DNA from: Phycisphaerales bacterium
GTDB taxonomy: Bacteria > Planctomycetota > Phycisphaerae > Phycisphaerales > SM1A02
Length of the DNA: 36,021 nt
Assembly: GCA_030748805.1 (NCBI GenBank)
Contig: JASMLG010000003.1
Span: forward strand, 1-36,021
Direction: 5' to 3'
In this document: positions 1-36,021 of the stretch, in pieces
Numbering within the stretch: the stretch's first letter is position 1
Layout of the letters: each line of letters starts with the position of its first letter
Notes under the pieces: model-generated
The model's input: only the letters and a program-made list of their open reading frames with translations
The model's database searches: none
What the model was told of the DNA's origin: nothing
Translations under genes and position numbers: made by a program

Positions 1-1102
1 CAAGTTCGTTATACGAAGTTGCTTGAGCGATTGCTGCTTCTGGAACAACTGGCATTACAAGCCAATAAATGTCAACGAAGAACATCAACAATAACCATCC
101 TGAGATTACTCTAAGTGGCCAAAGCCATCGTTTTGTCCATCTAGTAATTAATAAAACAAACGGAATAACGAAGTGACCAAAGAGAAGCAAAAGTGATATC
201 GCTCCCCACCCACCAAGTTGCCTCGCCATATACCAATTCGTTTCAACCGGAAGGTTAGCGTACCAAATTAGCATGTATTGACTAAAGGCAATATACGCCC
301 AAAAGACAACGCCAATACCAAATAGCCACTTACCCAAATCATGGTAGTGCTCGACAGTTATTGATTTTTGTATATGACCTGTTTGTTGCAAGAGACGAGC
401 AAGCAAAACCATAAGTGCAAAGAATCCGCACATACAAGATGCCCAAAAGTAGACAGCAAACATAGTACTGAACCACTTAGGCTGCAATGTCATTATCCAG
501 TCAATTGCAGCGTAACTTTGAGTAATGGCGAAAAGAATCATGCAAAGTGGAGCCCACTTCTGCATCTTATGTGTCCACTTGACATCTCCATCTTTATCTT
601 GGGCTGTTGACCATTTGAAATATAGTGTTCCAATAATTGCCCAAACAGCAAGGTAAAAGATTGCCCTAATAGCCCAGAATGTTGGTGACAAATAACCGGC
701 TTTTGCGTGGAGCATGTGGTCGTGTTCCATCAAATTCACATCACCCCATTGGTACAAAATTGCGCCATCACCCTTCAATACCAAAACAAGAACTGGAACG
801 AAAAGCATCCAAAGCCACGTGAGGTTCTTTGCCATGCCTTCCGCTAGCCGTCTAACAGTAATACTCCAGCCAGAACGAGTCATGTGTTGCAAGAGGATAA
901 AGAATAGTGCACCAAGGCAAAGACCAAGTCCAACCATCCAACCAACCAGATACGACTTCCAAAATGTCGCCCAGCCCTCGCCACTACCAAGTGCTGCGCT
1001 TAAGCCAAGAAGTGCAATGCCAATGATTGCAAGTACCGGTCCCGTTTTTGCAGCAACGCCACTTAGGCGAATATTGTCATTTTTTACTTCTGCAACTTTC
1101 AC
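1..1102 (-). CDS. actF: Alternative complex III subunit ActF (partial, cut by window edge)
   Basis: Translating the minus strand from 1102 gives an open frame to the window edge (about 367 codons, no stop), so the C-terminus is missing. It is a polytopic membrane protein with many hydrophobic helices and stretches such as LPVETNWYMARQLGGWG and WLVMPVVPE, typical of the ActF/ActC-type quinol-interacting membrane subunits of alternative complex III. The start is GTG at 1102: it overlaps the actE stop (GTGA), has GGGAG about 8 bases upstream, and the nearby ATG at 1080 is out of frame. As last visible gene of actABCDEF it should sit in the inner membrane and help oxidise quinol. Whether cytochrome oxidase genes or actG follow lies outside the window. 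Confidence 0.88.
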   Translation of the reverse strand, partial: MKVAEVKNDNIRLSGVAAKTGPVLAIIGIALLGLSAALGSGEGWATFWKSYLVGWMVGLGLCLGALFFILLQHMTRSGWSITVRRLAEGMAKNLTWLWMLFVPVLVLVLKGDGAILYQWGDVNLMEHDHMLHAKAGYLSPTFWAIRAIFYLAVWAIIGTLYFKWSTAQDKDGDVKWTHKMQKWAPLCMILFAITQSYAAIDWIMTLQPKWFSTMFAVYFWASCMCGFFALMVLLARLLQQTGHIQKSITVEHYHDLGKWLFGIGVVFWAYIAFSQYMLIWYANLPVETNWYMARQLGGWGAISLLLLFGHFVIPFVLLITRWTKRWLWPLRVISGWLLLMFFVDIYWLVMPVVPEAAIAQATSYNEL

Positions 1103-1851
1103 TCGTTGCTCCCTTCGCTTGATTTTGTTCGGGGAAGTGTTTGTGCGTTTGAAACCGTTGATGGGTCTGCGTCTTGCGACAACTGCAAGGCCTTAATGTA
1201 CGCAACAATCGCCCATCGATCTTTAGTTGAAATCTGTGAACCATATGCAGCCATCGTTCGAACGCCCTTTGTAATCGAATTAAACAATTGACCAACAGGT
1301 TGTTCTTTTATGACTTCTTCGTGCAGATTCTTTGGAGCGACCCAACTCGTACCATTTATTCCTGTCTCTACAAGTTGATTTGCTCGAGTGTGAATTAAAC
1401 CCTCGCCCTTTCCAACAGCGCCATGGCATGGAGAACAGTAGATATTAAACCGTTCTTGCCCGCGCAGGAGAAAATCATGATCGACCGTGAGCGAACTCGG
1501 GTATTCGGTAGACCAAGCCCCATCCGTAACACCCATAAAGAGGTGCGTGTCGCTAGCCATGCCATTTCTTGCAATCGTCCCTTCGACTCGTGGTCGCATC
1601 GCACGACCATCAAGGAACAGTGTGCTTGCTTCTTGAGAAACGAACTTTGGCTGATTATCCATGTTTTGGATGATGTGTATTCGTGGTTTATCACTATAGG
1701 AAGTTCTTGCCCTAAAAATAAGTGCAAGTGGAATAGTAGCAATACACGTAATGACAATAACTGTCCATTTAATCCATGCTGGTGTCTGTTTAATATCAGC
1801 ACAAATCGGTTTCATAATGTCGTCAATAATTTGTTTTATTAAATTGCCCAT
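1099..1851 (-). CDS. actE: Alternative complex III monoheme cytochrome c subunit ActE
   Basis: A 250-residue protein with one transmembrane anchor (about residues 28-47) followed by a periplasmic cytochrome c domain. The single heme-binding motif CSPCH lies at 139-143, followed by GAVGKGEG. A Met in the KGVRTMAAYG segment near residue 197 is the likely sixth heme ligand. In alternative complex III, ActE is the monoheme electron-transfer subunit that carries electrons out of the complex. The ATG overlaps the actD stop by one base (TAATG) and the stop overlaps the actF GTG start by four, so translation is coupled on both sides. Family assignment rests on the heme motif plus operon position and is strong. 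Confidence 0.92.
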   Translation of the reverse strand: MGNLIKQIIDDIMKPICADIKQTPAWIKWTVIVITCIATIPLALIFRARTSYSDKPRIHIIQNMDNQPKFVSQEASTLFLDGRAMRPRVEGTIARNGMASDTHLFMGVTDGAWSTEYPSSLTVDHDFLLRGQERFNIYCSPCHGAVGKGEGLIHTRANQLVETGINGTSWVAPKNLHEEVIKEQPVGQLFNSITKGVRTMAAYGSQISTKDRWAIVAYIKALQLSQDADPSTVSNAQTLPRTKSSEGSNE

Positions 1852-2444
1852 TATTTTTCCAACGCAATCACTGTTTCTGGGTCAAGTGTTTTTAAGAACG
1901 CTTCGACTTCGTCAAGGTTAAATTTAGGGTCACGCGCCTCGATGATGAGGTAGAACCTGTCATCGGTTGCACGAGTTAACGCCGGGTGCTTAAGTGTCGG
2001 GTGGTAAAACATCGGCAACTTGTTTAAGAAGAATGTTCCAAAGACAGCCGTCAGTGCCGAGAAGAGTACTGTCATCTCAAACGCAACTGGTACAAAAGCG
2101 GCGGGTCCAAGCAGTGGTTTGCCTGAAACGTCAAATTGATACCCAACAACTGGCAACAATGCCCAGATGTCAATCTGCAGTGAGTTTGTAAAGATTTGCA
2201 AAAAGCATGCTGCAATCAAACCAGTAAGCCCGCCAAAGAAAACAAGGATAGGCAGAATTGTCATCCTTACTCCCATAACCCTATCCAAACCATGAACAGG
2301 GAATGGGACATTACAATCGAACCATTTATATCCAGCGTCTTTTACCTTTTCTGCAGCATGGTAAATGCCTGGCGTGTCAATAAACTCAGCAGCAAGACCA
2401 AAAAGTTCTTCGCGTGCAACGGTATTTGATGTTACATCGCTCAT
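1851..2444 (-). CDS. actD: Alternative complex III subunit ActD (DUF3341)
   Basis: A 197-residue protein with two predicted transmembrane helices (roughly residues 58-85 and 117-140) between soluble ends. The segment [11 protein letters not shown] (about residues 44-54) matches the PFPxHGLD signature of DUF3341/ActD proteins. ActD is a small membrane subunit of alternative complex III without known cofactors. Its ATG overlaps the actC stop (ATGA) and has GGAGGA about 6 bases upstream. Length is usual for the family. No anomalies are seen. Confidence 0.92.
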
Positions 2445-3913
2445 TCGTCTTCCTCCAATGCTTTTGCCGTTTCTGCCGTTTCGCCTTCCATCTCGTAGTA
2501 ACTATGTCCATGCCCGTGCGGGTCAGCGATTGGCATGATTGCCTTCACTTCTGCAATCGCAAGTATTGGCAGGTAACGAATAAAGAGAAGGAAGAAGGTC
2601 ATGAACAAGCCAAATGAACCAAAGAGGGTCAATACATCAACCCATGTTGGTTCATAGATGCCCCAACTGCTTGGCAAGAAGTCGTTAGCAAGCGAAGTCA
2701 CAACAATGACGAATCTTTCAAACCACATTCCTACGTTTACTAGAAGAGATGCAGTAAACATAATTGCGATGCTATTTCGCGCCTTCTTAAACCAGAAAAT
2801 TTGTGGTGTAATAACATTGCAACTGACCATAATCCAGTACGCCCAACTGTAAGGACCAAAAGCACGGTTAATAAAGGCAAAGGACTCATATATTTCACCG
2901 CTATACCAAGCGATAAAGAACTCCATAGCGTACGCGTAGCCAACCATCGAGCCAGTAAGCAAGATAATTTTGCACATGTTCTCAAGGTGGCGCATCGTGA
3001 TGAAGTTTTTCAAACCCCACAATTGCCTTGCGGGAACTGCGAGAGTCATCACCATCGCAAAACCAGAGAAAATCGCACCAGCTACAAAGTATGGTGGGAA
3101 AATTGTTGTGTGCCAACCGGGAAGTTGTGCAACTGCAAAGTCAAACGAAACAACACTGTGCACCGAAAGTACAAGTGGGGTCGCTAGTGCTGCTAGCAAA
3201 AGATACGCTCGCTCGTATCGATGCCAGTGACGCATACTGCCACGCCATCCAAGAGATAAAATACCGTACGCAATTTGTTTTACTTTTGTTGTTGCACGAT
3301 CTCGCATCGTTGCAAGGTCTGGGATCATTCCCAAATACCAAAACAACAAAGAGACGGTGAAGTACGTACCGACAGCAAAGACGTCCCAAAGGAGTGGGCT
3401 TCTAAATTGTGGCCACATGTCCATTTGGTTTGGAATCGGGAAGAGCCAATATGCTAGCCAAATACGTCCAACATGAATGCCGGGGAAAGTGCCAGCACAG
3501 ATAACTGCAAATATTGTCATCGCTTCCGCAAAGCGGTTAATCGCTGTTCGCCACTTTTGTCTAAAGAGGAAAAGAATCGCAGAAATCAACGTACCAGCGT
3601 GACCAATACCAACCCAGAACACGAAGTTTACAATTGGGTAGCCCCAAGCAACTGGGTTATTGTTTCCCCAAACACCAACTCCAGTGAAGACAAGGTATCC
3701 AATCATCACCCCAAGAAGTGACATCGTGCAGAAGGAAATTGCTAGTGCGAAGTACCACGACTTCGGAGCTCTAGCTGTTTCGTTTGCCTTTAATATGTCG
3801 TCAGTGACTGATCCATAATCTTTATGGTTTAAGACAAGTTGCGCCCGTTGGCGAGGATCTTCGCCAGTGTTGACATTTGTGTCACCAAGTTCATTAACAG
3901 GAACGGTAGTCAT
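2441..3913 (-). CDS. actC: Alternative complex III NrfD-like membrane subunit ActC
   Basis: A 490-residue polytopic membrane protein of the NrfD/PsrC family, with about ten hydrophobic helices and conserved stretches such as [13 protein letters not shown] and [12 protein letters not shown]. ActC anchors the iron-sulfur protein ActB and forms a quinol-binding site in alternative complex III. The start ATG overlaps the actB stop by one base (TAATG), and the stop overlaps the actD start by four bases. The C-terminal tail is hydrophilic and acidic, ending EEDE. Assignment is secure from similarity to the family and from position between actB and actD. Confidence 0.94.
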
Positions 3914-6900
3914 TAGTGCTGACCCCCTTCCGTACTGATCGCACCATCAATAGGATTGGTCACTCTCGCAAGATATTTCGTGCGGGACTTAATGTTCAGT
4001 TCTTCGAGCATCTCGTAAGACCGTTTCTCATTATGAAGTTTTGACACGCGACTATTCTTGTCCATCAAATCACCAAACACAATGGCGCCTGCTGGACATG
4101 CTTGCTCACATGCCGTCACGATTGAGCCGTCAAGAACAGCAACACGCTGATCGGATTTCTTTTGTGCTTCTGTTTTCTTCACCCAAGCGTTTTTCGTAGC
4201 GATTTTCACGCGCTGAATTCGTTGTGTGCAGTAGGTGCATTTTTCCATCACACCGCGCATTCTTACCGTAACGTCTGGGTTAAATTGCATCGCTCGTAGG
4301 GTCTTGCCACCGGACTGTGCCTTCACGTAATAGTCGGGTTGCACTTGCAATAAGCCAGTCGAACGAAGTGGGTCGCGTCGGAAGTAATCGAAGTAATTAA
4401 AGCGTCGAACCTTAAACGGGCAGTTGTTGGAACAATAGCGAGTACCAATACAACGGTTGTAGACCATCGTGTTCAAGCCATCCGTATCGTGTACTGTTGC
4501 CGCAACAGGGCAAACCTCTTCACATGGAGCGTTTTCGCAATGCGTACAAGTCATTGGCTGAATCGCTACAGCCGAAAGGTTGTTTCCATCGTAGCCACCG
4601 TGCTCATCAGAACCAAACGCAAAATACCGATCGATTCGAAGCCAGTGCATTTCTCGACCCATGAGCACTTGATCTTTGCCAACGATTGGGATGTTGTTTT
4701 CCGCGTGGCAAGCAGCAACGCAAGCGTTGCAGCCGGTACAAGTTGAAAGGTCAAACGACATGCCCCACTTGTACTGAGCGCCCACAAATTGGTCTTCTGC
4801 AAAGATAGAAAGTGAATGCGAAGAATGACCAACGTGTTTTGCAAATGCAGGGTCAGCGTTGTACTGCTCGATAGTTCCTTCTCGGAACAAGAGTGGTAGA
4901 CGTTCTTGCGTGCTCTTTCCAGGAGTAGAGTTCACATCGAAGTGCATTTGGGTTGTTGCAAGCGGATACGTTTGCCCTGTCGCTGAAAGTTTTGCTGATG
5001 CAGACCATGTGTTCGTTGAAGAACGAAGCGGATACACGTCAACACCTGCACCAGTGCAAACTCGACCGTTAAATGTTCGTCCGTAACCAAGAGGTAAAAT
5101 CACGCAATCATCAGCAGTTCCAGGCACTGGAAGTGCTGCGACAGAAACACTTTTGCTTCCAACCGAAACCTTTAGCATGTCGCCTTGTTTCACGCCAAGA
5201 GTTTCAGCGGTTTTTGGCGAAATAAGAGCTGCATTATCCCATGTAAGTTTTGTAATAGTGTCGGGCATCTCTTGTAGCCAACCATTGTTTGCATGGCGAC
5301 CATCCCAAATAGTTCCAGAGGGAACAAAGCAGGCGGTATACCCAACACCGCCAACAATCGTTCCACCTTTTGGCGCTCTTCGATTCACAGGTGGTGTATC
5401 TAAAGAAGATGTGTTTGCAACAACTCCATCGTGAACCGCTGTTCGCCATGCAGGATTCCATTTGTCAGCGTTCTTGCTAAAAGTTGTTCTAACTAACGTT
5501 TGACCATCTGTAACCTCTTCACCCGATATGATCGCTAAGAATTCTGATGGTGACAAACCATTAAAAAGTGGTTCGATTAGCGGTTGCCCTATACATTTTG
5601 TTCCATCAATTGACCTTCCATCGCTCCACGACTCCAGCCAATGTGCTGCATTTACATGCCACTTGCAAACTTTTGATGTTTCATCTTCGTTATGAGATAG
5701 ATGAATAGAGAACGGCAATGCTTTTATTGCACTTGCCATGTTCAAGTCCGCTGGTGCATCAAAGGCTGGGTTGCCACCGAGAACAATAACACCTTCAATT
5801 GACTTGTTTTGAATCGCTTCTGCAAGATCTTTAAGCGATGCGTTATTACCAAAACTTCTAGCTCGATATGAAACAGTTGTTCCGACAGAACCTAGAACCT
5901 CATTCATCCTAGCAACTAAATAATGCACTGATGCTGGTTGGCTTGCTCCTGCAAGAACAAGTCCATGTTTGCCTGCATGTTGCAAGTCACCTACTAAATT
6001 ATCTGCCCATGCAACTTGTTCTGCTGTTAATGATGGTGTACCGTCAATCGACATGTCCACACCTGTTATCACTTTTGCGAGGTACGTTGCCACAGCAGCA
6101 ACAGCTGCAGGATTCATCGCCATACGTTCGTCTGCTTTTGCGCCAGTTATGGAAAGTCCTGGCTCTGCAATCCAAACACGACTCATCGTTCCATGATTCA
6201 CTTTACGACCGATTGACCACCCTCGGGTGTTTGGCACTTGCTTAGGCCCAGCACCCAGAAAATCATCGTCAAGTGAAACAATAACTGATGCATTTGACAT
6301 GTTGTGTACTGGAATCCAATTACCACCAAATGCACTTGACAAACCCTTGAATTGATTTGTATTGGCAAGTGGAGAGTACTCAACCCACATCGCTTGAGGG
6401 TTCTTCTTAATGAATGTTCTACGCATGCGGTCAAATGTTGGTGAACTTGATGGTTCCGTCACAACTGCAATGCCCTTACCTTCTTTTGGAAAGTATGAAC
6501 CAATCCAATCCTTAAATGCTGCAAGCGAAGATTCCTTGCCATCATAAGTTGGTTTACGACTTCGGTCTGGATCATAAACATCAAGTATCGATGCTTGTGT
6601 AAATGCATCGGTTGCACCCTTGCTATCTGGGTGTTCTGGGTTGCCTTCAATTTTTGTCGGACGCCCATCATTGCTTGTAACAAGAACACCTTGTGAAATA
6701 CCCTCAAAATCAAAACAACTTGCGTATTGCTCTGGGATACCAGGCATTGTGTTTTCGGGGCGGTGTGCGTAAGGAACGATGTTTTCTTTTGGCCAGCGAC
6801 GACATCCAGTTAGTCCTAATCCCGCGAGTGCCATCGAAGCGCCCATGATTTTCAAGAAATGTCGCCGATCTTCTCCAGTAGCAAGCAGTTCACTTGCACC

Positions 6901-7011
6901 TTCTGGAAACTCCTCATGCATTTTTGTTTGGAAGTCCTCACAAGCGACTACTTCATCAAGAGAACGCCACCAGGTCTTACCGTTTTTATTTGGTTCATTC
7001 AACGATGACAT
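3913..7011 (-). CDS. actB: Alternative complex III iron-sulfur subunit ActB (molybdopterin-oxidoreductase-like and ferredoxin domains fused)
   Basis: About 1032 residues. A twin-arginine signal ([11 protein letters not shown], arginines at 49-50, after a long N-region) implies Tat export to the periplasmic face. Residues of about 90-700 form the molybdopterin-oxidoreductase-like domain, which in this family carries no molybdenum cofactor. From about residue 750 on is a ferredoxin-like domain with four cysteine clusters: [38 protein letters not shown], and CTYC with CEQACP. In this family they bind three 4Fe-4S and one 3Fe-4S cluster. I chose ATG at 7011 (AGGA nine bases upstream) over the in-frame TTG at 7020. 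The start lies inside the 3' end of actA (13-base overlap); the stop overlaps actC. Confidence 0.95.
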
Positions 7012-7664
7012 GTAGAGCAATCCTGTGATGGGTTCAAGTTGTTAATTTCACGCCAGTTAATGCTATTTGCAATCTTCTCTGCGTCCGACATATCGATACC
7101 CCACTCTAACTGGGTGACTAAATCAGGGTTTCGCACGTGTGGGTCTGGGTTTCGGTGGCACTCAAGACACCAACTCATGCTCAAGGGTTTGTACTGATAA
7201 ACAACGTCCATTGTGTCAACTCGTCCATGACATTCAACGCAACTCACACCCCTTGTGACATGAGCACCATGATTAAAGTAAGAATATTGTGGAAGGTCAT
7301 GTACACGTACCCACTGAATTGGCATCCCTGTTTCGTAACTATCCCACAGCGGTTTTAATTTTTCGCTTTGAGGATGAATTTGTGCGTGGCAATTCATACA
7401 TGTTTGTGTAGGAGGGATAGCGGCGTGTTGTGTTTCTTCTACGGTGTTGTGACAGTAACGACAATCCAAACCAAGTTCACCAGCATGCAATCTGTGACTG
7501 AATGGTATTGGCTGCTCTGGCATGTAACCAACATCCGTTGCTTGTGGACTAAACCCATACGCAACGACAATTGCGAAATACAACGGCGCTGTTAAGCCAG
7601 CCACAATGATGGCTGGAAGCGCCAGATTTGTCCAGCGTGGAAATGTGTAACGTTGTTGTGTCAT
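6999..7664 (-). CDS. actA: Alternative complex III pentaheme cytochrome c subunit ActA
   Basis: About 221 residues. One N-terminal transmembrane helix (residues about 12-36) is followed by a periplasmic domain with five CxxCH motifs: CRYCH, CMNCH, CVECH, CLECH and CSTCH. The last lies at the very C-terminus, followed by one Arg. ActA is the multiheme cytochrome that passes electrons from ActB in alternative complex III. I prefer ATG at 7664, with AAGG about 11 bases upstream. An in-frame ATG at 7706 adds 14 polar residues but has no ribosome-binding site. It is the first gene of the operon, with a candidate promoter and an inverted repeat upstream (7735-7805). Confidence 0.93.
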   Translation of the reverse strand: MTQQRYTFPRWTNLALPAIIVAGLTAPLYFAIVVAYGFSPQATDVGYMPEQPIPFSHRLHAGELGLDCRYCHNTVEETQHAAIPPTQTCMNCHAQIHPQSEKLKPLWDSYETGMPIQWVRVHDLPQYSYFNHGAHVTRGVSCVECHGRVDTMDVVYQYKPLSMSWCLECHRNPDPHVRNPDLVTQLEWGIDMSDAEKIANSINWREINNLNPSQDCSTCHR

Positions 7665-7734
7665 ATATGTATCAGACCTTGTTTTATTTGGTCGAAATTC
7701 CGTCATAAATGAGGTAAGGGGGACGCAATAAATC

Positions 7735-25810: not shown

Positions 25811-25841
25811 GTAGTTTTCATTTAACGGGTATGATGTGTAT

Positions 25842-27434
25842 ATGTTGAGCATAATCGCAGGGATTATAGTTACACAGCAAGTTGCTCCTGTACCAAGTTA
25901 TAGACAAGCAACAGATATTTCTGTCATAACGATTGATGGTGTTGTGGACACCGTTACAGCACAATCATTCAAGCGCCGTCTTGCAGAATCTAGTAATGCC
26001 GATGCTCTAGTGATTGATCTCAATACACCTGGTGGTGATCTTATGTCAACTCTTGAGATTTGTTATGAACTCAAGAACAACGCCCCTCAAAACACTGTCG
26101 CTTGGATACACCCACACGCTTTCTCCGCTGGAACTATTATTGCGTTGGCTTGTAGAGAAATAGTTGTTGCTCCTGGATGTACATTTGGAGATGCTGCTCC
26201 AATTACCTCAACTGGGCACGCCATTCCAGCAACTGAAAGGGCTAAAATCGAGTCACCAGTTCTCGTTGAAGTAATTGATTCTGCAAGAAGAAACCACTAT
26301 GACGAACACCTTGTTGAGGCATTCGTCAGCGTCGGGGTGGAATTGTGGCTTCTGAAAAACAGAGAAACTGAAGAAATTATTTGCGTTAACTCTATTGAAT
26401 ACGAACAAATATTCGACAAGGAACCTCCAAGAAACTTTACTCCTATAGGGACAAGTATAGAAAAAATTAAAATTTCACCTTTTTTTGATTCAATTACAAA
26501 CATAACCTCTGGGATAAGAAAAAACGAACCAACTTGGGATCCAAGTTTTGCTCAACAACTACCTTCAAGCAGAAAACAACTCACCAGTCAAGATTCTGAT
26601 GAATGGGAATTAGTGAAACAGATCGTACCAAAAGATCGTTTGCTAACTCTCAAACCAGCAGAAGCAGAACAATATGGTTTAATTGTTGGTGTCATTGCTA
26701 ATGACAAAGAATTGAAACAATGGTTTGGTGCAACTTCACTTACTAGGCATGAAACAAACTGGTCAGAAGGTCTGGTTAGATTATTAATAAGTTGGCCAAT
26801 TAGACTTGTGTTAATTGCTGTGTTCCTTGTATGTATTTTTGTAGAATTCGTTTCTGGTTCTACCGGAGCTTTTAGTATTGGAGCAGTTGTTTCTATGTCA
26901 TTATTAGTTGGCGCTCCATGGCTTGCTGGACTTGCGCAGTGGTGGGACATATTGTTAGTGCTACTTGGATTATTCCTTATTTCAATAGAGATATTTGTAA
27001 TTCCCGGTACTGGCTTTACTGGACTTGCAGGAATTGCGTGTTTATTTGCTGGAATGGTTGGCAGTTTTATTTCTGGAGATCTACGTTCACCTGAAGGCCA
27101 AACTCAATTATTTACAGGGATTGCAGCAGTCATTGGTGGTTGTATTTTGGCGGTAGTTGGCGCTTGGGCTATAGCAAAACATTTTGGTGACTCATTTGCG
27201 ATGCAACGACTAGTACTCGCCAGTGAGAATCGAGGCAAATCAAGGAAAAAGCAATCTACCCCCAAAGTTGGAACAATTGGGGTTGCAACAACTGATTTAC
27301 GTCCTAGTGGAAGGATTAGCGTTGCTGACACCGTTTATGATGCTAATACTTCAGGTCAATGGATTTCTGAAGGTACAACAATCCGTATCATACGTACTGG
27401 ATTGACCATTGAAGTAGAGGAACACCACTCATGA
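25842..27434 (+). CDS. NfeD family membrane-bound serine protease (ClpP class, NfeD1b type)
   Basis: About 530 residues. A short hydrophobic N-terminus (about 1-16) looks like a signal. The ClpP/crotonase-like protease domain (about 25-190) has DLNTPGGD and HPHAFSAGTIIALA, with Ser95 as likely nucleophile and Lys135 (ERAKIES) as likely base, a Ser-Lys dyad as in NfeD proteases. Then come about five transmembrane helices (about 310-450) and a C-terminal OB-fold (GTIGVATTDLRPSGRISVADTVYDA). The start is ATG 25842 or GTG 25836; neither has a strong ribosome-binding site. It overlaps the short nfeD by four bases and precedes floA, the known NfeD-flotillin pairing thought to act in membrane quality control. 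Confidence 0.9.
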   Translation: MLSIIAGIIVTQQVAPVPSYRQATDISVITIDGVVDTVTAQSFKRRLAESSNADALVIDLNTPGGDLMSTLEICYELKNNAPQNTVAWIHPHAFSAGTIIALACREIVVAPGCTFGDAAPITSTGHAIPATERAKIESPVLVEVIDSARRNHYDEHLVEAFVSVGVELWLLKNRETEEIICVNSIEYEQIFDKEPPRNFTPIGTSIEKIKISPFFDSITNITSGIRKNEPTWDPSFAQQLPSSRKQLTSQDSDEWELVKQIVPKDRLLTLKPAEAEQYGLIVGVIANDKELKQWFGATSLTRHETNWSEGLVRLLISWPIRLVLIAVFLVCIFVEFVSGSTGAFSIGAVVSMSLLVGAPWLAGLAQWWDILLVLLGLFLISIEIFVIPGTGFTGLAGIACLFAGMVGSFISGDLRSPEGQTQLFTGIAAVIGGCILAVVGAWAIAKHFGDSFAMQRLVLASENRGKSRKKQSTPKVGTIGVATTDLRPSGRISVADTVYDANTSGQWISEGTTIRIIRTGLTIEVEEHHS

Positions 27435-27985
27435 TTGATTTACTTGCACAGACAGGAACCGCGGGAAGCGCCTCTCCGATTATCTGGGCGTTCATATTCA
27501 TTGGAATTGCAATTGTTCTTTTGTTTGTTGAGCTTTTTGTTCCATCTGGTGGTTTAATCGCCTTAGTTGGAGGTCTATCTGTCGTAGCATCTTTGATTGC
27601 TTTTTTCATGCACGATGCTAACACTGGATTAGTCGCAACAGGCATTTACATTGTATTTGGTCCAGTACTTGGTTGGATTGCATTCAAAATATGGACCGCT
27701 TCACCACTTGCAAAACGCATGATTCTAGGTGGTATTGTGACTGAAGATAATGAAGAAGCAACTCAAAAGATGCACGCCAGACAAGAGGCACAACTTTCTG
27801 AACTTCAGGCGCTAATTGGTAAACGAGGAGAGACCGTAACAGTCCTCAGACCAATTGGTGTTGTCACAATAGATGGCAAACGAGTTGATGCTATGGCTGA
27901 ATCAGGCACAATTGAACCAAACACCGCTGTTGAGGTCATAAACGTTTATGACAATCAAATAAAAGTCAGAGAACTAGAGGATTGA
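27431..27985 (+). CDS. Short NfeD family membrane protein (OB-fold)
   Basis: A 184-residue protein without a protease domain. Two to three transmembrane helices (about 18-40, 45-65, 68-88) are followed by a linker and a C-terminal OB-fold-like part (GKRGETVTVLRPIGVVTIDGKRVDAMAE, with VEVINVYDNQIKV). It corresponds to the NfeD1a/short form, which in many bacteria pairs with a flotillin. The start overlaps the long nfeD by four bases (ATGA), and floA begins 31 bases downstream. Having both a long and a short nfeD next to floA is common in this family of loci. Confidence 0.88.
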   Translation: MIDLLAQTGTAGSASPIIWAFIFIGIAIVLLFVELFVPSGGLIALVGGLSVVASLIAFFMHDANTGLVATGIYIVFGPVLGWIAFKIWTASPLAKRMILGGIVTEDNEEATQKMHARQEAQLSELQALIGKRGETVTVLRPIGVVTIDGKRVDAMAESGTIEPNTAVEVINVYDNQIKVRELED

Positions 27986-28016
27986 TACAATACGTATTTG
28001 AAGAGGAGGTTCGCTT

Positions 28017-29030
28017 ATGAATTCATTTTTAGCACTTTCACCATGGATGTTAGGTGGAGTAATAATTGGTGGCATTTTTTTGCTCATTCTCGTTGCATTT
28101 GCATTCCAATATGTAGGTCTATATTTACAAGCATGGGTCAGCGGTGCAAAGGTTGGATTTATTGACCTTGTCATGATGAGATTTCGTAAAGTAAACGCAA
28201 AGTCGGTAGTCATAAATCGCATTAGTGCTAAAAAAGCCGGAATCGAAGTTTCGACTGATCAACTTGAAGCACACTATCTTGCTGGCGGTCGAATTACAAA
28301 CGTGGTTCGAGCAATGATTGCTGCCGACAAGGCACGCATCGATTTGCAATGGGAAACCGCAACCGCTATTGACCTTGCTGGCCGTGACATTTTGGAAGCA
28401 GTTCACACAAGTGTTGATCCTAAGGTTATTGATTGCCCAAGTGATGGTGGAGGAAAACGGACAATTGATGCTGTCGCTGGAGATGGCATCCAATTGCGCG
28501 CACGCGCAAGGGTAACCGTTCGAACAAATATCGCGCGCCTTGTTGGCGGTGCAACTGAAGAAACAATTATCGCTCGTGTGGGCGAAGGGATTATTTCGAC
28601 GATTGGGTCAGCGCAAACCCACCTTGCCGTGCTTGAAAACCCTGACAACATTTCCAAGACAGTACTTGCAAAAGGACTCGACGCGGGTACTGCATTTGAA
28701 ATCCTTTCCATTGATATCGCTGATGTCGACGTTGGTGAAAACATCGGTGCAACGTTGCAAGCACACCAAGCAGAAGCAGACAAAGCAAGGTTCCAGGCGG
28801 AAGCAGAAAAACGGCGTGCAATGGCTGTCGCACAAGAGGCCGAATATCGTGCCGAAGAACAGAAAAACCGTGCCCTAGTTGTTCTTGCTGAGTCGGAAGT
28901 ACCAAAAGCAATGGCCGATGCATTTCGAAAAGGCAATTTCGGAGTAATGGACTATTACAACATGAAGAACGTCATTGCAGACACAGATATGCGTTCTTCT
29001 ATTGCTGGCGAACCAGAAGACATTAAGTAA
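28017..29030 (+). CDS. floA: Flotillin-like protein FloA
   Basis: A 337-residue SPFH/flotillin-like protein of the FloA (YqfA, UPF0365) family. An N-terminal hydrophobic hairpin (about 8-35) inserts in the membrane, followed by [22 protein letters not shown] and the SPFH region. An Ala/Glu-rich coiled coil lies near 240-290 ([30 protein letters not shown] is typical), then the C-terminal [20 protein letters not shown]. FloA organises functional membrane microdomains. AGAGGAGGT at 28002-28010 gives a near-ideal ribosome-binding site. Context with two nfeD genes upstream supports the call. Confidence 0.96.
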
Positions 29031-35057: not shown

Positions 35058-35666
35058 ATGTCACAGAAATATCCATCTATTCTTTTAATTGGACCTCCGG
35101 GGGTCGGAAAAGGGACTCAGGGAGTGATGCTTGGAGCAATCCCCGGATTCTTCCATCTAGCAACTGGAGACATGTTTCGATCATTAGATAAGGAATCAGA
35201 AATTGGGATGGAGTTCTCGCGATATTCAAGTCAAGGATTACTCGTTCCAGATTTTTTAACCGTTCGTTTGTGGCTGCAACATGTTGATCAATTGATCTCT
35301 AGAGATCTATACAACCCAACTAGTGATGTCCTACTTCTAGATGGCATTCCTAGAAGTGTTCCGCAGGCTGAGTCGATGGAAGAGCACATTGATCCGTTTA
35401 TGATTATTCACCTCGTTTGTGAAGATCTTGACGAAATGGTTGCCCGCATGCAAAAAAGGGCTACGCAGCAGGCTCGCCCTGACGATGCAGACGAGTCTGT
35501 CATTCGTAAACGGTTTGAAGTATACGAAGAGCAAACTGCACCATTGCTGGCGTGTTACGACCAAAAGATCATTGCAAATATTGACGCTCTTGGATCTCAG
35601 GCGGAAGTACTGTTGCGAGTACTTGAAGAAGTTGTTCCAGCTGTTCAAGCGTACAAAGACAAATAA
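35058..35666 (+). CDS. adk: Adenylate kinase
   Basis: A 202-residue nucleoside monophosphate kinase. The P-loop GPPGVGKGTQ lies at 12-21, FHLATGDMFRSL follows for AMP binding, LLLDGIPRSVPQAESME corresponds to the DGFPR region, and RMQKRATQQARPDDADESVIRKRF is a short lid without zinc cysteines. It interconverts ATP plus AMP with two ADP in the cytoplasm. DGIPR replaces the common DGFPR, a modest change. No ribosome-binding site is seen before ATG 35058. The gene is followed after about 5 bases by the promoter for the tmRNA-like repeat. Confidence 0.88.
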   Translation: MSQKYPSILLIGPPGVGKGTQGVMLGAIPGFFHLATGDMFRSLDKESEIGMEFSRYSSQGLLVPDFLTVRLWLQHVDQLISRDLYNPTSDVLLLDGIPRSVPQAESMEEHIDPFMIIHLVCEDLDEMVARMQKRATQQARPDDADESVIRKRFEVYEEQTAPLLACYDQKIIANIDALGSQAEVLLRVLEEVVPAVQAYKDK

Positions 35667-35670
35667 ACGA

Positions 35671-35697
35671 TTGACATTTTATGAGTGTGGGTATAAT
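35671..35697 (+). promoter_or_regulatory. Consensus-like sigma-70 promoter before the truncated tmRNA copy
   Basis: TTGACA (35671-35676) and TATAAT (35692-35697) match both hexamers perfectly. The spacer of 15 bases is shorter than the optimum of 17. Transcription would start near 35704 and cover the truncated ssrA copy and possibly read on into ssrA. Confidence 0.6.
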
Positions 35698-35712
35698 AAG
35701 TGAGCATTCGTG

Positions 35713-35807
35713 CACTGCTCTTTGAAAACTTAGGGGAGGGACCTGGTATCGACGGGCAGGAAACGCAATACATTGCGTAACGGGGAGCATCCTTGCCACG
35801 ATAAAAA
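35713..35807 (+). pseudogene. Truncated, diverged tandem copy of the tmRNA leader and 5' end
   Basis: This stretch repeats 35865-35958 with a period of 152 bases and roughly 85-90% identity: the shared leader TGCTCTTTGAAA, GGGG near the RNA start, CCTGGTATCGAC, the block GCAATACATTGCGTAACG, and GGAGCATCCTTGCCACG. Similarity stops where tmRNA continues with the second strand of pseudoknot 1 (AAGGATGC), so pk1, tag frame and tRNA-like 3' half are missing. The conserved TTCGAC is changed to ATCGAC, and the CGTGG/CCACG stem gains a mismatch. In contrast ACGCAA-TACA-TTGCGT is a better hairpin than in the full gene. It has its own promoter. It could be a dead remnant or a small RNA of about 100 bases. 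Confidence 0.8.
35716..35730 (+). promoter_or_regulatory. boxA-like element in the leader of the truncated tmRNA copy
   Basis: TGCTCTTTGAAAACT resembles the boxA antitermination element of rRNA leaders (TGYTCTTTGAAAACT type). It sits about 12 bases after the predicted transcription start. Confidence 0.45.
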
Positions 35808-35825
35808 TATAACTAATAAATAATT

Positions 35826-35851
35826 GAAAGTTTTGCTTTTACAAAAGTTTC
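35826..35851. repeat. AT-rich inverted repeat in the ssrA promoter region
   Basis: GAAAGTTTTG (35826-35835) pairs with CAAAAGTTTC (35842-35851) with one mismatch around a 6-base loop. It overlaps the likely -35 box of ssrA. It may be a weak terminator for the upstream copy or an operator; no T-run follows. Confidence 0.4.
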
Positions 35852-35860
35852 GCGTATACT
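35833..35860 (+). promoter_or_regulatory. Candidate promoter of ssrA
   Basis: TTGCTT (35833-35838) and TATACT (35855-35860) are 16 bases apart. Transcription would begin near 35867, giving a short precursor trimmed to the mature tmRNA 5' end near 35885. Confidence 0.45.
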
Positions 35861-35867
35861 GTGCCAC

Positions 35868-35882
35868 TGCTCTTTGAAATCT
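35868..35882 (+). promoter_or_regulatory. boxA-like element in the ssrA leader
   Basis: TGCTCTTTGAAATCT closely matches the boxA-type sequence of rRNA leaders and the copy at 35716-35730. It lies just before the mature tmRNA 5' end. Confidence 0.45.
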
Positions 35883-35884
35883 TA

Positions 35885-36021
35885 GGGGCCGACCTGGTTT
35901 CGACCGGACAGGGAAGGCAATACATTGCGTAACGTGGAGCATCCTTGCCACGTAAAAAGGATGCACAATTTTTAGTTGGCAACGCTAACTACGCACTCGC
36001 AGCATAACCTGCGACACACCG
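35885..36021 (+). ncRNA. ssrA: Transfer-messenger RNA (tmRNA), 5' part; runs off the window
   Basis: The start GGGGCCGACCTGGTTTCGAC fits the conserved tmRNA 5' end (GGGG, TGG, TTCGAC). The pseudoknot 1 stem CGTGG/CCACG encloses GCATCCTT, which pairs perfectly with AAGGATGC downstream. The tag frame begins with GGC at 35978, preceded by TTTAGTT with the conserved A at -4, and reads Gly-Asn-Ala-Asn-Tyr-Ala-Leu-Ala-Ala before TAA (36005-36007). The tag ends in YALAA like the E. coli degradation tag, so stalled products would be marked for ClpXP-type proteases. The downstream pseudoknots and tRNA-like 3' half lie outside the window. Tandem partial copy upstream. Confidence 0.93.

Follow-up and report, generated by a model that had tools for sequence, protein, structure and literature searches.

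In a contig from a marine Phycisphaerales bacterium, a partial and altered copy of the 5' end of the tmRNA gene ssrA lies between adk and ssrA, and the same altered copy recurs at this position in a relative whose silent sites are near saturation against this contig. Tentatively, and at a little less than an even chance, we read the copy as a retained, probably transcribed, tmRNA-derived non-coding RNA element. An earlier note, made from the sequence alone, had raised a small RNA derived from tmRNA as a possibility; the second, deeply diverged species with the same copy (85/87 positions, all eight changes) speaks for that idea, whereas the promoter, the hairpin and the core from which the note had argued fail to carry it. 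Overall, the observation stands, the idea is partly supported and, with two carriers, our confidence is no more than moderate.

The analyzed stretch, hereafter the window, is 36,021 nucleotides long. It belongs to a Phycisphaerae-type contig with the gene order recJ-adk-copy-ssrA and contains two beginnings of ssrA within its final 310 bases. The matches of its adk on three Phycisphaerae MAG contigs have 75-85% identity, and the one other match, on a distant Acidimicrobiia contig, reaches 34%. The features relevant to the locus are as follows.

35058..35666, + strand: adk (adenylate kinase), the upstream neighbour; open reading frame, Pfam ADK at 5.4e-27
35671..35697, + strand: candidate promoter of the copy, read from the sequence; TTGACA at 35671-35676, a 15-nt spacer and TATAAT at 35692-35697
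35714..35800, + strand: upstream partial ssrA copy with eight copy-specific changes, from repeat and alignment; 85/87 identical to positions 3311-3397 of contig L003 (genome G003)
35714..35782, + strand: run of 69 nt identical between the window and L003 copies, from sequence comparison
35716..35725, + strand: boxA-like motif TGCTCTTTGA of the copy; same motif in the 16S leaders of G030, G032 and G036
35763..35778, + strand: small hairpin ACGCAA-TACA-TTGCGT in the copy, from folding; at chance level among random mutants
35801..35864, + strand: AT-rich spacer with the ssrA promoter (TATACT at 35855-35860), from the sequence; no terminator found
35868..35877, + strand: boxA-like motif TGCTCTTTGA of the true ssrA, from the sequence and the family loci
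35885..36021, + strand: true ssrA (tmRNA), first 137 nt, the gene being cut by the contig end; Rfam RF00023, 56.6 bits

The claim that about 95 bases of the tmRNA 5' region are present twice, 152 bases apart, was confirmed by direct repeats at 35713-35736/35865-35888 and 35753-35806/35905-35958, spaced 152 from start to start. The upstream copy covers the boxA leader together with 68 nt from the start of ssrA, and 78 of its 88 columns aligned with the downstream copy are identical. Shared with the relative are six substitutions, an insertion and a deletion; two further differences are found in the window only. Of the two, the tmRNA covariance model matched the downstream copy (35885-36021) but left the upstream one unmatched. 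The window portion of ssrA includes the start of the tag frame GNANYALAA at 35978-36007 and is identical at 137/137 positions to the intact ssrA of G035, for which ARAGORN gives the tag GNANYALAA. Throughout the upstream stretch 35640-35884 no Rfam family was matched at E <= 10, and ARAGORN reported no gene in the window. By sequence the copy resembles tmRNA (RF00023) in its leader, 5' end and D region and in one strand each of helix 2 (the 5' one) and pseudoknot 1 (the first). It differs in having a re-coded acceptor strand and no 3' half, T arm or tag frame. It begins with GGGGAGG and finds no 3' partner before ssrA, the similarity to tmRNA extending over only 87 nt.

In L003 the partial copy sits at the same place as in the window, and the conserved stretch of both copies runs from the boxA motif to the first strand of pseudoknot 1. 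Over 87 positions the two copies agree at 85, with a longest run of 69 and all eight copy-specific changes in common, while the true ssrA genes agree at 86/87 over the same stretch. Residue identity between the two contigs is 152/202 for adk and 359/567 for recJ, and the four-fold synonymous sites of these genes agree at 88/239, near saturation. The left flanks of the copies show little similarity (17/40), and the right flanks, before the true genes, show a promoter-like one (29/40). Since the copies agree so closely despite the state of the four-fold sites, plain neutral decay appears very unlikely. With neutral agreement per site taken as 0.37, from the four-fold sites, the chance of sharing all eight changes is about 3 in 10,000, and that of the 69-nt run is negligible. 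The copy is a partial gene without one end, as in pseudogenes and fragments, and its conservation departs from the unconstrained drift of a pseudogene. Judged from these comparisons, what remains would be constraint or selection, or else a recent exchange between lineages confined to about 90 bp. With regard to a small RNA, the sequence is kept in two species, at differences too few for covariation. In the recJ tree the two carriers do not group as sisters; the adk tree has poor resolution and is compatible with a single origin of the copy. Recombination is expected to remove direct repeats of 87 nt lying 152 nt apart with ease, and their survival in two lineages therefore suggests that the copy is kept.

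The earlier note had regarded absence from close relatives as evidence against its idea, and on this point the picture is mixed. A pattern search found the copy in one of the 13 genomes of the genus (G003) and not in the other 12, which include G033 and G039, where a DNA search found no ssrA. In a pattern search across 400 genomes of the order, drawn from a larger group, the altered letters occurred in none beyond G003. A DNA search of 181 genomes of the family, blind to diverged copies, matched 19 at all and gave a double match only in G003 and G031. An ungapped 40-nt comparison detected no upstream copy at 30 family ssrA loci (L065-L094, the best 30 of 139 genomes above the Rfam cut-off), upstream sequence amounting to only 77 nt in one and 258 nt in another.

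The genus shares the gene order recJ, adk, ssrA. The adk-ssrA gap is without an extra gene or copy in G001, G002, G030, G032, G037 and G038, and holds a partial ssrA copy in G003 and the window. It is an insertion spot in G034, G035 and G036 (L051-L053): a 550-residue secreted-type ORF with a dockerin domain at its end (Pfam) occupies the gap of G035, an ORF similar in length and ending that of G034, and unrelated ORFs that of G036. The G031 locus is split over two contigs, the G033 contig stops within adk, and G039 is without an adk match. As a separate observation, G031 has a second ssrA-like gene on its contig C134 (L054, 1402-1680), placed behind a dockerin-like ORF and without pseudoknot 1 and tag frame; the tmRNA match is 260 nt long, and ARAGORN finds no gene in L025. 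Degeneration of a paralogue could account for this gene, as could an error in binning or assembly.

The eight changes fall in the acceptor strand, the D region and the start of helix 2, several of them at positions invariant in the intact tmRNAs examined. All 30 intact family ssrA loci contain GGGGCCGA and TCGACCGG (GGGGCCGA belonged to the search pattern for these loci, and no locus was lost by that), where the copy reads GGGGAGGG and TCGACGGG. With these replacements the copy escapes the long-range pairing of tmRNA, and because the eight changes are fixed and several hit invariant positions, it cannot supply a normal tmRNA with its 5' half. Other peculiarities proved less telling. The changed TTCGAC core, previously counted as damage, was rejected as evidence, since TATCGAC for TTTCGAC occurs naturally in intact tmRNAs (9/30 family loci). 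The hairpin described as improved does gain two pairs, but its best local 20-mer reaches only -6.0 versus -5.8 kcal/mol; random mutants of the true 5' end equal it in 938/2000 cases with eight changes and 927/2000 with ten, and it was likewise discarded. Folding of the window copy is not unusual (z -0.68 and -1.26), and that of the L003 copy is somewhat stable (z -2.15 over 90 nt, -0.85 over 70 nt). That the copy stops before the second strand of pseudoknot 1 is true of the window but not of L003, where this strand is present.

Both copy and gene are preceded by TGCTCTTTGA, which, from its consensus, we take to be boxA, the NusB-S10 site of rRNA antitermination. The genus has this motif in its rRNA leaders as well: it precedes 16S by 330-370 nt in G030, G032 and G036, which are 3/3 genomes with a 16S 5' end available (a 16S match of any kind was obtained in 4/13). 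At the 30 family loci, CTCTTTGA was found at 7 or 8 of its 8 letters, no more than 25 nt before ssrA, in 29 cases, versus 4/485 control windows further upstream; for a phylum sample (the best 30 of 53 loci above the cut-off) the counts were 2/30 versus 1/510, and a few other phylum loci have a similar motif farther upstream of ssrA. The boxA-like placement is therefore mainly a family trait. NusB-family proteins are encoded in all 13 genomes of the genus, in 12 of them by a reading frame as long as a stand-alone NusB (130-183 aa). The presence of boxA and NusB-S10 in rRNA leaders is described in PMC10931766; in the three genomes above the rRNA motif sits about 330-370 nt before 16S, whereas only a few nucleotides separate the putative boxA of ssrA from the 5' end of tmRNA. 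Among the matches listed from open-licence PMC full text, nothing concerned boxA before ssrA. By its sequence, then, the tmRNA of this family seems to carry an rRNA-type antitermination signal.

The -35/-10 pair of the copy had been called perfect, which holds for the hexamers; their spacer, however, is 15 nt, and a promoter scan requiring 16-18 nt finds no promoter at the copy. We regard this promoter as weak evidence. It is not conserved in L003, the promoter regions of the two carriers being alike at 17/40 positions. Within G003 the promoter regions of the copy and of its own ssrA are alike at 35/40. The window ssrA promoter is identical to that of G035 at 36/36 nt up to the end of TATACT, and gene plus promoter region are 97% identical over 209 nt; four-fold sites of the window and G035 agree at 104/247.

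If the copy is a retained RNA element, a partial tandem duplication of ssrA would have been followed by re-coding that left the local 5' elements of tmRNA in place, namely the D region, the 5' strand of helix 2 and the first strand of pseudoknot 1. The mechanism we consider most likely is an action on ssrA itself: the copy RNA, read through into ssrA or released, would compete with the true 5' half for the tmRNA 3' half, and this competition could tune tmRNA folding or maturation. Computed pairing of the copy's 5' strand with the 3' half of nine relatives' tmRNAs ranges from -43.8 to -49.8 kcal/mol, and that of the true strand from -42.3 to -47.6. Also in keeping with this mechanism, a terminator between copy and gene was looked for and not detected. 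As an antisense to the 3' half the copy is thus possible but unexceptional, its pairing being equalled by 344/4000 random mutants of the changed region (376/4000 for the window copy); 984/4000 do as well for the first 33 nt alone, and 90 and 100 of 4000 are as good when changes are allowed anywhere in the 52 nt. According to models of read-through transcripts, an unchanged duplicate would take over the 3' half with an advantage of 5.6 and 5.7 kcal/mol. Re-coding that serves to escape this capture would suit G003 but does not stand out in the window: with the G003 copy the true gene is favoured by 2.3 kcal/mol, and 0/60 simulated versions reach the actual copy; with the window copy the copy-paired state is favoured by 2.1 kcal/mol, and 25/60 simulated versions reach it. 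These models hint only weakly at a regulatory step on ssrA.

A non-functional stump kept alike by exchange is almost as likely as a function. It could stem from a partial duplication, or from an incoming ssrA that, together with its own promoter, replaced the native gene and left the old 5' end behind adk; by trading short stretches of tmRNA inside genomes and across lineages, homologous recombination would then mimic conservation. Partial tmRNA genes are known, PMC4131195 describing pseudogenes without one end and fragments made by islands; our copy resembles them as a partial gene without one end beside an intact gene start, and differs from those described there as a 5' fragment that is near-identical, with private changes, in two deeply diverged species. 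The adk-ssrA locus also seems, on sequence grounds, to recombine. Relatives have a remodelled gap with an extra gene (G034, G035, G036), the likeness of the window ssrA and promoter to G035 set against the four-fold sites looks as if a tract had been exchanged, the two promoter regions of G003 look as if converted, and the recJ tree separates the carriers. Conversion with ssrA, on the other hand, would wipe out the eight copy-specific changes, yet both carriers have all of them. Exchange from carrier to carrier would need both of them to have had a copy already, and its tract, about 90 bp long, would have to stop where flank divergence sets in. Moreover, the copy differs at letters invariant in 30 intact relatives, so it is not merely another working allele.

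We give little credence to the view that the copy matters only through its promoter and boxA, as a second upstream promoter with antitermination that boosts ssrA in the manner of rRNA tandem promoters, the rest being ballast. Such a role would suit the boxA-like motif shared by both copies and the rRNA leaders of the genus, as well as the lack of a detected terminator between copy and gene (35801-35864), but the body of the copy is kept as well as its leader, the window spacer is 15 nt, and the carriers' promoters differ. An assembly artefact in metagenome contigs is very improbable: the window, L003 and G031 C56 contigs all end inside ssrA, a locus evidently hard for assemblers, but two assemblies give the same altered sequence with different unique flanks and small differences of their own, and the altered letters were seen in no other genome of the 400 searched. 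We rejected a two-piece (permuted) tmRNA, which is likewise tmRNA in parts, because the copy adds a second 5' part to a gene that is itself unpermuted, and has no Rfam match. A viral origin was also discarded; one viral contig (L058) has GGACCTGGTATCGACGGG, with no ssrA around it by eye, and longer copy and gene patterns gave 0 matches. As regards an island-made fragment, no integrase family was found among the 24 window proteins scanned, a set that leaves small ORFs aside on a contig ending in ssrA, and the TniB/IstB-type ATPase matches in the window belong to a ClpB-like protein.

Elsewhere in the window, the minus strand of 1099-7706 carries a respiratory gene cluster of the kind found in Alternative Complex III, its products including ActD, NrfD, iron-sulphur and cytochrome proteins, and at 25836-29030 an NfeD-type membrane protein gene lies near a FloA (flotillin-like) gene, a single short ORF separating the two.

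We return to the copy as a retained, tmRNA-derived RNA element. This reading builds on its position and sequence, on the second diverged carrier and on the boxA-like motif, from which we infer transcription, function and target; counted against it are the restriction to two carriers, the missing second pseudoknot 1 strand in the window copy and a promoter unlike that of L003. In its full form, as a regulatory RNA consisting of a re-coded 5' half with its own boxA that controls tmRNA folding or maturation via the 3' half and is kept across deeply diverged species, we hold the proposal to be unlikely. No conserved tmRNA-derived RNA was described among the matches listed from open-licence PMC full text.

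Partial tmRNA copies are usually dismissed as pseudogenes. The same altered letters, kept between species with nearly saturated silent sites, would hint that a fragment of tmRNA can take on a role of its own and, if true, this would offer a simple route to regulating ribosome rescue. The boxA-like motif before ssrA further suggests that the tmRNA of this family is transcribed with the rRNA antitermination machinery, a prediction that is directly testable.
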